Assembly: GCF_020911885.1 (NCBI RefSeq)
Contig: NZ_CP087132.1
Location: forward strand, 62,001 to 126,000
Direction: 5' to 3'
DNA: 64,000 nucleotides
From: Flavobacterium acetivorans
GTDB taxonomy: Bacteria > Bacteroidota > Bacteroidia > Flavobacteriales > Flavobacteriaceae
Shown here piece by piece: positions 30,753 through 46,303 of this stretch. The position numbers were made by a program, and so were the translations under genes. Position 1 is the stretch's first letter, and the number at the start of each line of letters is the position of its first letter. The notes under the pieces were generated by a model. It did not search any database and was not told the origin of the DNA. It saw nothing but the letters and a program-made list of their open reading frames with translations.

Positions 30753-30800
30753 AATTTCTGAACTTTTTCTCCCGAAAGTTCGATATTAGTTAAGAAAAAA

Positions 30801-31040
30801 GGCAGGTCTCCTGGCTTGCGTCTTGTTGTTTACCTTCCCAACACAAAATGTGCCAGTGGTTTTGTAGATAACAACAAGCTTGATAGCTTACAGTTGCGGG
30901 AACAGCTCAAGATTTTTGATTTTTGATCGCAAATTTTTGATTACAGAATAATTCTGAAATCTAAAATCGTTAATCTTCATTCTTCAATCACTTGATTCCC
31001 TTTTAATGTGATTTGCAAAAAACAAAACACAACCTCAATT
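30801..31040 (-). ncRNA. cobalamin riboswitch controlling btuB-btuG
   Basis: Read on the minus strand, the B12-box GCCAGGAGACCTGCC (near 30801-30815) is a perfect match to the riboswitch consensus. Upstream are the conserved GGGAA, GCTGTTCCCGCAACTGTAA, the CCACTG segment and GGGAAGG, in the right order. The core spans about 240 bases because one peripheral arm is extended by A/T-rich sequence. It ends about 50 bases before the btuB start. Binding of adenosylcobalamin should lower btuB and btuG expression. Confidence 0.93.
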
Positions 31041-31046
31041 CGGCTG

Positions 31047-31079
31047 CAAAGATAGAGTTAAAATTAGCAGAAAAACAAA
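31047..31079 (-). promoter_or_regulatory. promoter of the riboswitch-btuB transcript
   Basis: Minus strand: TTTG (31079-31076), 21 bases, TATCTTTG (31054-31047). The predicted start near 31041 coincides with the 5' edge of the riboswitch. Confidence 0.5.
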
Positions 31080-41599: not shown

Positions 41600-41759
41600 T
41601 CTTTAAAATTTGAAGCAAAAATACAAATATAGAATCCTTCAACTACAAAAAACTTCACAGTCATCTAAAGAAAATATTTACAAAAAGATTAAAATATATA
41701 ATTTTAATCAGTAAATTACTATAAATCATTTTATTAAAAACCCCAAAACGAAATAAATC

Positions 41760-41850
41760 ATGATAAAAAGAACTCTTTTGGTCGAAAATAAATCTTCGAT
41801 AACCACCAAAAATCTCCAGTTAGTCATAAAATCAGAAATACGGGAAAGCA
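41760..41850 (+). pseudogene. probable cas1 5' remnant
   Basis: The first about 30 codons of this plus-strand frame (MIKRTLLVENKSS, then TTKNLQLVIKSEIRES) line up by eye with the start of type II Cas1 proteins, for example the sequence WRSLLIQN...RQLLI of Neisseria Cas1: basic residue, LL[IV].N, then QL[LV]I. After about residue 32 the frame runs into unrelated sequence and overlaps the RAYT gene on the other strand. It supports the idea of a destroyed type II-C locus here, but the identification rests on remembered N-termini. Confidence 0.45.
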
Positions 41851-41891
41851 AAACTGGAAAATGTGGATGCGCCCACGCAACTGGAACTGTT

Positions 41892-42494
41892 TTAAACTGT
41901 TTTTTTATAGAATTTATCTTTGTTCCAACGATTTGGATTATTCGCTATATAATTCACGATATTTTGATATGCCTTTTCATCTCTGATAATATGATCGTGA
42001 AAAGAACGATGCCATGCAAACGTACCATAATCTGCCTGATGAATTAATTTGGAACTTGTTGTTTTATAAGCACCCATAATTTCGGAAAGGGATTTTATTT
42101 TTATGTCCTCTGAATTCAATTGATCTGTATCGTTCTTACTAATTAAGTTTAGCTTTAGCGAATCGATTTCAATTATAGCATGGATATGATTCGGCATGAC
42201 TATATAAGAGTGGAGTTCAATATAAGGATATTGAATTTCCAACCATTGCAATTGATTATTTGCAATAATTCCATATTCATTCAAAATCATTTCTGATTCA
42301 TTTTCATCGGGATTATTTTCATCGGGATTATTTTCATCGGGGTTATGTACGGACAGGTCGCGACCTGTCCCTACCGGAACCACATCACCAAAACAACATT
42401 CCATATTTTTAACACATGATGTCACGAAATACAAATTATTCCGCGAATAATCATATCCAACCATTCGATTTCGCTTTCTATTTTTCATAAACAA
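41892..42494 (-). CDS. REP-associated tyrosine transposase (RAYT, Y1_Tnp)
   Basis: 200-residue HUH transposase-like protein. The HUH motif lies in YIVMPNHIHAIIEI (about 95-108), and the single catalytic tyrosine is expected in the C-terminal helix around EKAYQNIVNYIANNP. Start region KNRKRNRMVGYDYSRNNLYFVT is family-typical. Unusually, codons about 43-58 read through a perfect REP palindrome and three tandem NPDEN repeats inside the coding sequence. A second copy of the palindrome lies 29 bases upstream of the start. IS200-like RAYT genes with nearby REPs mobilise or process those elements. Confidence 0.85.
   Translation of the reverse strand: MFMKNRKRNRMVGYDYSRNNLYFVTSCVKNMECCFGDVVPVGTGRDLSVHNPDENNPDENNPDENESEMILNEYGIIANNQLQWLEIQYPYIELHSYIVMPNHIHAIIEIDSLKLNLISKNDTDQLNSEDIKIKSLSEIMGAYKTTSSKLIHQADYGTFAWHRSFHDHIIRDEKAYQNIVNYIANNPNRWNKDKFYKKTV
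42303..42348 (-). repeat. three tandem 15-bp repeats inside the RAYT gene
   Basis: The plus strand reads about three times TTTTCATCGGGATTA, encoding NPDEN three times on the minus strand. The frame is kept because the unit is a multiple of three. Confidence 0.7.
42351..42370. repeat. REP palindrome within the RAYT coding region
   Basis: GGACAGGTCGCGACCTGTCC is a perfect 20-bp palindrome preceded by GTAC. Part of it is translated as RDLSV in the RAYT. Confidence 0.75.
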
Positions 42495-42522
42495 TTGATT
42501 TTTTATCGATTACAAACCGTAC

Positions 42523-42542
42523 GGACAGGTCGCGACCTGTCT
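42523..42542. repeat. second REP palindrome upstream of the RAYT gene
   Basis: GGACAGGTCGCGACCTGTCT, 19 of 20 identical to the copy at 42351-42370, also preceded by GTAC. It lies just upstream of the RAYT start codon, where such elements usually sit. Confidence 0.75.
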
Positions 42543-42604
42543 CTTTAATCAAAATTAAATAATTTAAACATCCCTAAAAATCAATACTTTCAAACATTAG
42601 AAAC

Positions 42605-42652
42605 AAAAAAATGCGCCAATATTGGGTTATCAAGCCAAAAAAGGAGCATTTT
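42605..42652 (-). terminator. hairpin with T-run after the CRISPR remnant
   Basis: Arms AAAATGCGCC and GGAGCATTTT (one mismatch) around a smaller TTGG/CCAA stem; on the minus strand it ends with a seven-T run. It would terminate a minus-strand transcript running from the cas9 side through the repeat, as expected at the end of a CRISPR array. Confidence 0.5.
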
Positions 42653-42706
42653 ACTTTACGACATTCTCAATTAATCAACTGATATACAGCAAACAACAAG
42701 CCTACT

Positions 42707-42742
42707 AATATCGTGTTTTCTAATCTTTAATCAAACCACAAC
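42707..42742 (-). CRISPR. single 36-bp type II-C CRISPR repeat, orphaned
   Basis: The minus strand reads a 36-base unit starting GTTGTGGTTTGATTAAAG and ending ATTAGAAAACACGATATT. Its central 16 bases GATTAAAGATTAGAAA are the exact complement of the tracrRNA candidate at 42913-42928. Thirty-six bases beginning GTTGTGG fits type II-C repeats. Only this one full copy is present. It is fused to the truncated cas9 frame. A degenerate second unit may start near 42676 (TTGATTAATTGAGAA) after a 28-30 base spacer-like stretch. Confidence 0.7.
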
Positions 42743-42809
42743 CGTTTATCCCTTCAATAGCCCATCCAATCGAGTTTGTTCCTAAATCTAATCCTAATAT
42801 TTTTGCCAT
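42720..42809 (-). pseudogene. cas9: cas9 5' remnant, 29 codons fused to a CRISPR repeat
   Basis: The minus-strand ORF begins MAKILGLDLGTNSIGWAI, the RuvC-I motif that opens type II-C Cas9 proteins, with the catalytic aspartate at residue 8. It then leaves the Cas9 frame (EGINGCGLIKD, stop), because the last eight codons lie in the CRISPR repeat at 42707-42742. A normal Cas9 exceeds 1000 residues, so more than 97 percent is deleted. The junction lies between codons about 18 and 22. A possible promoter (TATATTTA, 42841-42834) remains upstream. Confidence 0.8.
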
Positions 42810-42868
42810 AATAAATCCTTTTGTTTCAATTATATAAATATAGTAAGAAAAACTCTACAATAATAACC

Positions 42869-42899
42869 TTTGTTTATAATTTAGTTTTCCCTATATTTG
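42869..42899 (+). promoter_or_regulatory. promoter of the tracrRNA
   Basis: TTTG (42869-42872), exactly 19 bases, TATATTTG (42892-42899): a perfect Bacteroidota promoter, pointing to a start at about 42905. It diverges from the cas9 remnant. Confidence 0.7.
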
Positions 42900-42904
42900 T
42901 TTCT

Positions 42905-42992
42905 GATTAAAATTTCTAATCTTTAATCTTATCATAATAAGGCTATATGCCGTAGATGAAAATCTTTAGTCCTGCTTCGGTGGGACTTTTTT
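42905..42992 (+). ncRNA. orphan type II-C tracrRNA gene
   Basis: About 88 bases. The anti-repeat TTTCTAATCTTTAATC (42913-42928) is the exact reverse complement of the core of the repeat at 42707-42742. Then comes AATAAGGC, the nexus sequence also present in the Neisseria tracrRNA, forming a GGC/GCC hairpin, followed by AGAT-GAAA-ATCT and a terminator hairpin AGTCC/GGACT with a TTTTTT run. A promoter matching the consensus precedes it. No internal damage is evident, although its cas9 is gone. Confidence 0.75.
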
Positions 42993-43250
42993 ATTCCATA
43001 CCAGATCGGTTTCAAAAAAAAACTTTTTATCTTATCTAGCAAAGTTGCCAATTCTGGATTCAATAGAGTATTTCCCATCATTTTTAGCTTTTGGTTCGTG
43101 AAACATATTTGAAAATTGGTTACTTTTGTTAAAGTAGACACAAGTTCCTCACAGTTCCTGTCATACAAAACCAATAGTACTGGTATTGCACCAAGATACA
43201 TTGGCTTTTTACCAACAAAAATGTACAACCAGAACAAGTATCTTTATACT

Positions 43251-43637
43251 ATGAACACAGCAAGCAAACCAAAACACATAGGACGTAACATCAGCCGCAT
43301 CAGGGAACTTCGCGGAATGAAACAAGAAGCCTTGGCTATGGCCATTGGTGTAAGTCAACAAACTGTTTCTAATATTGAAGGGAGTGAGACTATTGAGGAT
43401 GTTTTATTAGAAAAAGTATCAGAGGTTTTAAATGTATCACCTGAAGGAATCAAACAATTTAATGAGGAAACAGTGTTTAATATTATAAATAATACGTTCA
43501 CGGATAGTAGTTCAAATAACAATAATTATCTGTGTTCAATAAATCCTCTAGATAAAATTTTGGAGCTATATGAACGCCTTTTAAAAGCTGAAAAAGAAAA
43601 AATAGAATACTTAGAAAAATTACTTAAAGATAAATAA
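43251..43637 (+). CDS. XRE-family helix-turn-helix regulator with C-terminal coiled coil
   Basis: 128-residue protein: N-terminal helix-turn-helix (about 10-70: IGRNISRIRELRGMKQEALAMAIGVSQQTVSNIEG), then a linker and a C-terminal coiled-coil-like helix (about 105-128, LDKILELYERLLKAEKEKIEYLEKLL). A longer frame reaches back to 43116, but its extra part has no family pattern; the start at 43251 is chosen because the HTH begins directly after it. A TATCTTTA box lies just upstream, giving a nearly leaderless mRNA. It is the first gene beyond the tracrRNA; a link to the CRISPR remnant is not supported. Confidence 0.85.
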   Translation: MNTASKPKHIGRNISRIRELRGMKQEALAMAIGVSQQTVSNIEGSETIEDVLLEKVSEVLNVSPEGIKQFNEETVFNIINNTFTDSSSNNNNYLCSINPLDKILELYERLLKAEKEKIEYLEKLLKDK

Positions 43638-43786
43638 CCCCATATTTTTAATTTGAATACAGCCTTTCCTCGGAAAGACTTTTTATTGCACCCCTCTTCC
43701 TATAACCATATCGTAAACGAAAGTAGTCTTGAATATCGGATTCTTTATTTATAATATTATTCGTTCCATTAATCTCCAAAAACCAC

Positions 43787-44524: not shown

Positions 44525-44932
44525 AGGTAAATAATATTTAGCTATACAATCACTAATATAATTCCAACTTATGCAAAATCTTTTAAAATGATTTAAAGCA
44601 TAGATATAGTACTCTTATAGCACTATAATAGTACTAATATACTACAATTAACACGACTAAAACACTAAAAATAAACAACTTAGATAAAACTCCTAAACAA
44701 TCTCCCTGTGCATTATTGAGCAGATGCAGCTATCGCATAAGCTTCTTCTGCCTTATCCAATTATAAACAACCATCTTAAATAACCAAAGGGTTTATGAAG
44801 CATGAAATAATGGTGAACCATGTCTAAAAGTAAATTTTGTGCAAAAGCACATTTTTAAATTGTCTATTATCAATTTTAACGAACTCTCCTATCTTTTTTA
44901 TACTTTTACTTTTTATAAAAAACAACCCTTTT
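44525..44932. other. 408-bp gap holding a degraded pseudouridine-synthase fragment and repeats
   Basis: The left part (44600-44700) is A/T-rich with short ATAGTACT-like repeats. The right part carries the rluE-like remnant described separately at 44735-44822. The rmuC promoter should lie just before 44933; GTCTATTATC is the nearest TA-rich candidate. Confidence 0.4.
44735..44822 (-). pseudogene. degraded 5' fragment of a RluE-like pseudouridine synthase
   Basis: From 44822 the minus strand reads MVHHYFMLHKPFGYL, matching the start of the intact protein at 41015-41599 (MPQRHFILHKPYGYL). After a one-base frameshift it continues VYNWIRQKKLM, aligning with FIYELKRKKKLL of the intact protein, and then meets a stop. 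No catalytic domain follows. A second, dead copy of the gene start. Confidence 0.55.
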
Positions 44933-46303
44933 ATGTCAACTATTCTCCCGTTTTTATTGGTATTTATCATTGCACTTGCCCTTGGTGCCTTTATTGGAAA
45001 ACTCTTATTCTCAGCTCGTTTTCAATCGGAAAAGATTAGTCTCGAAGAGAAACTGATTGCTTTAAATTCCCAATTCAATCAATTAAAAGAACAATTTTCG
45101 AATGATAAAATGACTTTCGAAAAACAATTGGAAACCATAAATTCTGAGAAAGAAATCATCCGAAACGAAAAAGACAGTCTGGCGATTCAACTTTCCAAAA
45201 AAGAAGTCGATTTCGAAAATCTTTGGGAACGCAACAAAGAGCAAAAAGACGAGGTTGAGAAACTACAGGAGAAATTCACCAAAGAATTCGAAAACTTGGC
45301 TAATAAAATATTAGACGAAAAGTCCAATAAATTCACCGAGCAGAACAAGGAAAACATGAAAAACATCCTGTCTCCTTTGCAAGATAAAATTCAATTATTC
45401 GAAAAAAAAGTCGAAGATACCCACAAAGAAAGTATCGATTATCATGCGGCTTTACGCCAACAGATTTTAGGCTTACGCGAAATGAACATCCAAATGAGCA
45501 AGGAAACCATCAACCTGACCAAAGCCTTGAAAGGCGACAGCAAAATGCAGGGAAACTGGGGCGAACTGGTACTAGAACGCGTGCTGGAAAAATCGGGACT
45601 GGAAAAAGACCGTGAATATTATGTACAGCAATCCCACACCAATAGCGAGGGACAGCGCGTGTTCCCGGATGTTGTAATTAACCTGCCTGATGGCAAAAAG
45701 ATGGTTGTCGATTCAAAAGTGTCTTTGACCGCTTACGAAAAATACATCAATGAAGAAGATGATAATCTAAAGAACAACTTCTTAAAAGAACATGTGAGCT
45801 CTATCAAGCGTCATGTGGAACAACTGGGAGACAAAAACTATCAGGATTTGTACCAAATAGAAAGCCCGGATTTTGTGTTGCTTTTCATCCCAATGGAACC
45901 GGCATTTGCCATGGCGCTCAACGAGGACACGACTTTATACAACAAAGCATTCGAGAAAAACATCGTAATCGTTACGCCTTCGACCCTTTTGGCCACTTTG
46001 CGAACCATAGATAGCATGTGGACTAACCAAAAGCAACAGGAAAATGCCTTTGAAATTGCCAGACAAGCAGGTGCTTTGTATGATAAATTTGAAGGTTTCG
46101 TTGCTGATTTAATCAAAATTGGTAAGAAAATCGACGAAAGCAAAGCCGAATATAGCGGCGCCATGAACAAGCTGGTTGAAGGAAAAGGAAACCTGATTAC
46201 CAGCGTTGAAAAATTGAAAAAAATGGGCGCTAAGGCTAAGAAATCGCTTCCCGAAAGCATTATAAACCGAGCTGAAAAAGACGAAAACCAATTATTAAAT
46301 TAA
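44933..46303 (+). CDS. rmuC: DNA recombination protein RmuC
   Basis: 456 residues from the start at 44933. One N-terminal membrane span (about 3-22), a long coiled coil (about 28-190), then the RmuC nuclease-like core (about 205-420: GDSKMQGNWGELVLERVLEKSGL, FPDVVINLPDGKKMVVDSKVSLTAY, DFVLLFIPMEPAFAMAL). RmuC limits inversion and rearrangement at short repeats. An upstream in-frame ATG at 44837 exists but would add a non-homologous hydrophobic run. Confidence 0.93.
   Translation: MSTILPFLLVFIIALALGAFIGKLLFSARFQSEKISLEEKLIALNSQFNQLKEQFSNDKMTFEKQLETINSEKEIIRNEKDSLAIQLSKKEVDFENLWERNKEQKDEVEKLQEKFTKEFENLANKILDEKSNKFTEQNKENMKNILSPLQDKIQLFEKKVEDTHKESIDYHAALRQQILGLREMNIQMSKETINLTKALKGDSKMQGNWGELVLERVLEKSGLEKDREYYVQQSHTNSEGQRVFPDVVINLPDGKKMVVDSKVSLTAYEKYINEEDDNLKNNFLKEHVSSIKRHVEQLGDKNYQDLYQIESPDFVLLFIPMEPAFAMALNEDTTLYNKAFEKNIVIVTPSTLLATLRTIDSMWTNQKQQENAFEIARQAGALYDKFEGFVADLIKIGKKIDESKAEYSGAMNKLVEGKGNLITSVEKLKKMGAKAKKSLPESIINRAEKDENQLLN

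Follow-up and report, generated by a model that had tools for sequence, protein, structure and literature searches.

Does a tracrRNA gene that stands beside the remains of a cas9 gene still serve a purpose, or is it what is left of a CRISPR-Cas locus that died? We addressed this question for a 64,000-nucleotide stretch of the Flavobacterium acetivorans chromosome (NZ_CP087132.1, positions 62,001 to 126,000; hereafter the window, in which all positions are counted), for which the original prediction had proposed an intact orphan tracrRNA of a lost type II-C system, and had left the choice between very recent decay and a retained use, with a Cas9 encoded elsewhere in the genome or as a regulator of its own. 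Our results suggest that this tracrRNA is very probably the survivor of a recently inactivated type II-C locus, a young relic.

By alignment and the covariance model R1, the gene (42905-42992, plus strand) is a type II-C tracrRNA gene of the Flavobacterium kind. The elements described below all lie on the plus strand. A promoter-like site, TTTG-N19-TATATTTG, is found upstream exactly as predicted (42869-42899), and none of its 31 positions differs from Flavobacterium granuli; note that a legend in PMC10309648 names TAnnTTTG as the consensus for promoters of Bacteroidetes. The 16-nt anti-repeat that forms the upper stem (42913-42928) consists of the word TTTCTAATCTTTAATC, and the identical DNA word is present at 42717-42732 in the residual CRISPR repeat of the locus, which bears out the proposed complementarity. 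The alignment places the lower-stem anti-repeat at 42933-42937, where the window reads CATAA and the other loci CACAA. The predicted nexus motif, AATAAGGC, begins at 42936, with the nexus hairpin GGC-TATAT-GCC at 42941-42951, and it is followed by a second hairpin, AGAT-GAAA-ATCT (42954-42965), and by the expected terminator hairpin with its T-run (42968-42992), which both the fold and the alignment recover. The RNA therefore has an anti-repeat complementary to the repeat of its own locus, a conserved nexus, downstream hairpins and a closing terminator.

In the window's own repeat:anti-repeat duplex the predicted energy is -27.4 kcal/mol, and 0 of 500 shuffles were as good. Folded alone, the strand from 42905 to 42995 reaches -20.4 kcal/mol (z -3.1), an energy that none of 200 shuffles equalled; this fold contains the terminator and the GGC/GCC stem, but its 5' portion folds back on itself and no AGAT/ATCT hairpin forms. 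The two hairpins predicted downstream of the nexus are thus supported by the alignment, the AGAT/ATCT one on that basis and not by the lone fold. In the alignment A2, which comprises the window and 18 other loci, the tracrRNA is nearly invariant, and the three hairpins are kept in 99.6% of 254 cells over 17 distinct rows, compared with at most 52% for slid structures. Covariation is thin: a single pair, in the second hairpin, is altered on both sides (A-U to G-C, in 2 of the 17 distinct rows), and 97 of 500 shuffles also reached one such pair. The anticipated fit to a tracrRNA covariance model was obtained, at 120.1 bits with a top match of 121.5, although R1 was built from 19 sequences (the window and 18 related loci), so that the window's score speaks for fit and not for independence. 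Since the same RNA adjoins cas9 across Flavobacterium, its tracrRNA-like features are not a product of chance. The word intact, however, goes slightly too far for this near-complete orphan: position 42935 is a T in the window and a C in 18 of the 18 other A2 loci, a change that puts G-U in place of G-C in the lower stem and weakens the duplex to -27.4 from -29.3 kcal/mol. When the window was searched against Rfam at the gathering score, no RNA family was matched other than the cobalamin riboswitch (30784-31052, minus strand, 92.2 bits).

The history of the locus can be read by comparison with F. granuli DSM 19729 (NZ_FQWO01000001.1; locus L035), whose type II-C locus has the same repeat, gene order and flanks as the window. 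Between the window's neighbours, F. granuli carries cas1, cas2, a transposase-like gene, the array (15 repeats in a 66-bp series), a cas9 of 1436 aa and the tracrRNA; the window lacks the Cas proteins and the array that F. granuli keeps. Within the window, the cas1 stub (codons 1-30; 41760-41849, plus strand; 0 of 90 differences from F. granuli) ends in the 9-bp direct repeat CGGGAAAGC (41841-41849), the closing point of the first deletion, and is followed by a cas2 tail (41850-41895, plus strand; 2 of 45 differences) out of frame with it. In F. granuli, 1,084 bp lie between two copies of CGGGAAAGC (L035 1849-1857 and 2933-2941) that are gone from the window, so that codon 30 of cas1 is joined out of frame to the end of cas2. 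Neither of these two remnants appeared in the original prediction.

The second deletion corresponds to an interval of about 5.3 kb in F. granuli. What remains at this place in the window is the first array repeat, a run of 14 nt and about 18 codons from the start of cas9. The single residual repeat (36 nt; 42707-42742, minus strand) equals the first F. granuli array repeat in place and sequence; the comparison with F. granuli puts the 14 nt at the deletion junction (42743-42756), perhaps a spacer remnant; and the cas9 stub (42757-42809, minus strand; 2 of 53 differences), which we take to cover the start of the RuvC-I region, agrees with the predicted reduction of the nuclease to about 18 codons. 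Both deletions spared the gene between them, the tracrRNA and the promoter-like site. The gene between them (41892-42494, minus strand) is transposase-like and syntenic in F. granuli; its Y1_Tnp (IS200-like) match, at 23.0 bits, is barely at the family cut-off. The same frame contains a 15-bp minisatellite with 3 copies in the window (42300-42346) and about 11 in F. granuli (L035 3405-3576). No intact cas9, cas1 or cas2 and no repeat-spacer array are left in the window locus, which, as these footprints show, was killed by two separate deletions, one in cas1-cas2 and the other from the array into cas9.

How old is this decay? Up to the terminator, the tracrRNAs of the window and F. granuli agree at 59 of 61 sites (42905-42965); the terminator was left out of the count because the first F. 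granuli unit carries another one. These 2 differences in 61 compare with 4 in 188 over the three dead stubs, and with 5 at the 64 other sites between the cas9 start and the tracrRNA. Judged by these comparisons, the tracrRNA seems to have been kept no better than the adjacent dead stubs, on counts too small to argue against constraint, and the promoter-like site, also on small counts, may have been kept better than its surroundings. By the A2 consensus, the difference at 42935 falls on the window branch and that at 42950 on the F. granuli branch. Recent decay consequently fits better than retained use among the two options originally proposed, since the one tracrRNA change on the window branch altered a position at which the 18 other loci all have C.

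Nei-Gojobori estimates of dS to F. granuli, for single genes, were 0.28-0.40 in the outer genes (presumably trmL-like, rsuA-like and rmuC-like), compared with 0.06 for the transposase-like gene and 0.10 for a gene encoding 245 aa. Because of these low values, the block that holds the locus has probably been exchanged, or is otherwise younger than the split of the two species. The stretch of the window from about 43000 to 43775 is missing from F. granuli at the matching place; it includes a gene for an XRE-type HTH regulator (43251-43637, plus strand), at most a candidate member of the CRISPR locus. F. granuli also differs from the window in having two tandem tracrRNA-like units and not one. 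Both units (L035 9404-9586) lie behind one promoter-like site, the first with a different terminator and the second with a different nexus, and second tracrRNA copies less than 1 kb from the first are also seen in G204 (L036) and G285 (L037). F. granuli was the sole near relative recovered from 100 relatives and from the GTDB contigs, which may omit the window's own genome; no other strain of the window's species turned up, either among those 100 relatives or when the exact string of promoter and tracrRNA was searched for in the GTDB contigs.

We propose that the ancestral locus was organised as in F. granuli, with cas1-cas2, the transposase-like gene, array, cas9 and tracrRNA. The comparison shows that a deletion at the 9-bp direct repeats fused codon 30 of cas1 to the end of cas2, and that the other deletion left one array repeat and some 18 cas9 codons. 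Since the tracrRNA and its promoter-like site were spared, the RNA is probably still made; the residual repeat is its one known partner, and its sequence is probably drifting. Cas9 defence, if active, would now be carried by a second type II-C locus.

This second locus (L034) lies in the same genome, a single contig of 3.56 Mb, and so the Cas9 elsewhere that had been suggested does exist: a cas9 of 1420 aa without internal stops, accompanied by open frames for cas1 and cas2, 67 exact 46-nt repeats, 66 distinct spacers and a tracrRNA of its own. The anti-repeat of this tracrRNA contains the 16-nt word TGAAAGCAATTCACAA, which an excerpt of PMC5006608 gives for Riemerella anatipestifer. XRE regulators stand beside both tracrRNA genes of the genome (L034 9511-9906 for the second), with 66% protein identity and in different orientations; in the other loci scanned, most with a flank of 1.5 kb only, no XRE gene was seen near the tracrRNA. 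We also considered that the second system might have caused the loss by self-targeting, but the spacer search did not support this: the 66 spacers gave no match longer than 16 nt to the window or to L035, and the two hits within the CRISPR block of the window (41700-43000) were of 11 nt.

Could the second Cas9 still use the orphan RNA? The RNA might then work, for example, with a crRNA-like transcript, which could conceivably run from the cas9 promoter through the stub into the residual repeat, as this repeat follows the cas9 start on the same strand. The second tracrRNA resembles the orphan in nexus and terminator, so that the second Cas9 might bind the orphan as well; R1 matches the second tracrRNA at 53.1 bits, the second system shares its lower stem, CACAA:TTGTG, with the first-system consensus, where the window has CATAA, and the promoter-like site is unchanged relative to F. 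granuli. The second system, however, has a 46-nt repeat and its own tracrRNA, and its Cas9 is 30% identical to that of F. granuli. The orphan anti-repeat and the second repeat reach -5.6 kcal/mol, which 272 of 500 shuffles equalled, so that the pairing on which sharing in trans would depend was not found and is ruled out for the second array. In the reciprocal combination, the second anti-repeat pairs weakly with the old repeat (30 of 500 shuffles as good). Another array with the old repeat, for which the original prediction had proposed to look, is not there, as a search of the whole genome at up to 3 mismatches returned a single copy of the 36-nt repeat. Together with the substitution at the otherwise invariant site 42935, this makes continued use by the second Cas9 quite unlikely.

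A Cas9-independent regulatory job for the orphan RNA would explain why its promoter-like site and terminator are complete, and orphan copies in other genomes could be taken in the same sense. We consider this possibility against a sample of 398 Flavobacterium genomes, drawn from a larger group, in which R1 matched 90 genomes and the cas9 family 148; the searches score some of the candidates of a loose first pass, and a lack of match is not proof of absence. For cas9 we used TIGR01865, because PF16595 gave no match even in 14 control genomes and was uninformative. Surroundings were read for the genomes without a cas9 match and for those without an adjacent cas9 among the matches listed, and the others were judged by coordinates.

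Nine of the 90 tracrRNA-positive genomes had no cas9 match. In G240 a whole tracrRNA (117.1 bits) comes with a promoter-like stretch, and no match was found to cas9 or to the repeat, nor to any cas gene within the 14 kb read. In G162 the copy is decayed; in G180, G069 and G248 the tracrRNA has become fused with an array or repeat; G120, G315 and G369 mainly keep its 3' part; and in G334 it is truncated by the contig end. The absence of cas9 is less certain in the incomplete genomes G069 (76%), G369 (67%), G334 (89%) and G248 (88%), while G180 and G240 are single contigs, 99% complete. In three further genomes (G000, G236 and G066) cas9 is matched in the genome, but just a stub adjoins the tracrRNA. 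By tblastn with three Cas9 queries, this stub has about 227 codons in G236, which has another cas9 match elsewhere, and about 207 codons in G066, where it abuts a cas1 stub. One tracrRNA copy of G239 has no cas match within 14 kb, and another lies near a cas9 match. G179 and G328 were rejected as orphans because their tracrRNA adjoins a long cas9 match, and in G243, G347 and G134 the tracrRNA locus ends at a contig edge.

Two further observations concern the surroundings of these loci. The rmuC-like gene downstream of the tracrRNA (about 44930-46303 in the window) is common to several tracrRNA loci (L009, L010, L021, L022, L023, L033, L035, L039, L044, L047 and L057), and this shared neighbour suggests an old common site. 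The word TTACGGTTTTCC recurs near cas9 and tracrRNA promoters, upstream of the tracrRNA in many loci, and has a palindromic form, TTACGGTTTTCCGTAA, in L041 (6703-6718 and 7445-7460), L053 and L066; in the window, neither TTACGG nor CCGTAA is present between 42810 and 42905.

In favour of a regulatory job, an orphan copy occurs in G240, which has no cas9 match. However, in its relative G317 the tracrRNA adjoins a cas9 match, and the flanking gene of G240 lies 1.2 kb away, so that cas9 stands there at the place matching the flanks of G240; because of this, the G240 orphan also looks like a loss on a single branch. There is no sign of one orphan common to several species at one site, and in G162 an orphan has decayed freely. 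A regulatory role of its own is accordingly very unlikely for the orphan RNA.

A different route to cas9 loss is suggested by some of these relatives. Array repeat and anti-repeat flank cas9 as direct repeats, and recombination between the two would excise cas9 and leave cas1, cas2, the array and the tracrRNA body joined by a hybrid repeat. Such a hybrid is present in G180 (L040), where the last array unit, 66 bp and in register, reads from one side as a repeat and from the other as an anti-repeat with its nexus; the related G074, whose downstream flank is 89.6% identical over 1,044 bp, has a cas9 beside the tracrRNA, cut by the contig end. G248 (L044) has a hybrid of the same type and a 39-codon cas1 stub, and in G069 (L043) all 6 of 6 repeats are hybrid, the last one running into the nexus. 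Among 289 genomes searched at up to 3 mismatches, hybrid repeats occurred in 4: G180 (1), G248 (1), G069 (6) and G239 (1). The G239 hit, which just reaches the limit of 3 mismatches, is a normal repeat that carries a single change. The scars of G180, G069 and G248 are what would be expected if recombination had cut out cas9, and we regard such excision, taken by itself and in those relatives, as somewhat probable. Gene conversion is an alternative explanation of the hybrids. In G069 we infer that the array would have re-grown after excision. The combined proposal that cas9 is excisable in Flavobacterium, that the G069 array re-grew and that some orphans, perhaps that of the window, are used with another Cas9 is, as a whole, improbable. 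No report of cas9 excision by recombination between repeat and anti-repeat was found in a literature search of titles and abstract openings, a scope outside which most subscription journals fall. That the window locus itself died in this way, as its flanking direct repeats and the scars in relatives might suggest, is hardly credible and is ruled out by its two surviving copies, since repeat and anti-repeat persist separately with the promoter and the cas9 start between them.

We therefore return to the young relic, which is favoured because the related locus is intact in F. granuli, both deletion footprints are recognisable and one repeat is left; because the genome has a complete second system whose repeat fails to pair with the orphan RNA; because the tracrRNA has diverged about as the stubs have, with its change at 42935 falling on an otherwise invariant C; and because other stages are seen elsewhere, as stubs beside a whole tracrRNA (G236, G066) and as a decayed copy (G162). 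Some points weigh on the other side. The RNA is near-complete, its promoter-like site has no change, and the sole change on the window branch would preserve a G-U pair; the F. granuli RNA is presumably in use, so that its conservation hides part of the drift; and the whole orphan of the closed genome G240 fits a pure decay clock less well. On balance, the orphan is most likely a young relic and not a new system.

The locus belongs to a known kind, the degraded type II loci, and its history is clear. The original prediction expected few precedents. Relics in fact recur within the genus, and strains of F. psychrophilum in which Cas9 is truncated or missing (PMC10309648) likewise show the loss of a type II-C cas9 in Flavobacterium. 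Outside it, PMC6882279 describes in Spiroplasma syrphidicola EA1 a second array that is accompanied by a putative tracrRNA but by no cas genes, also a tracrRNA without its cas9; there, in contrast to the single repeat of the window, a 9-repeat array is kept, and the tracrRNA is marked as predicted. In line with that expectation, our literature search for an orphan or solitary tracrRNA returned one paper, on TnpB, and there just the term tracrRNA-like.

The comparison with an intact related locus lets the death of a type II-C locus be followed base by base. It also carries a caution, that a near-intact orphan tracrRNA is no proof of use. Our results suggest that tracrRNA genes may be a common residue, and thus markers, of lost Cas9 systems, and the hybrid repeats of the relatives suggest that these loci may have a built-in and testable route to the loss of cas9.
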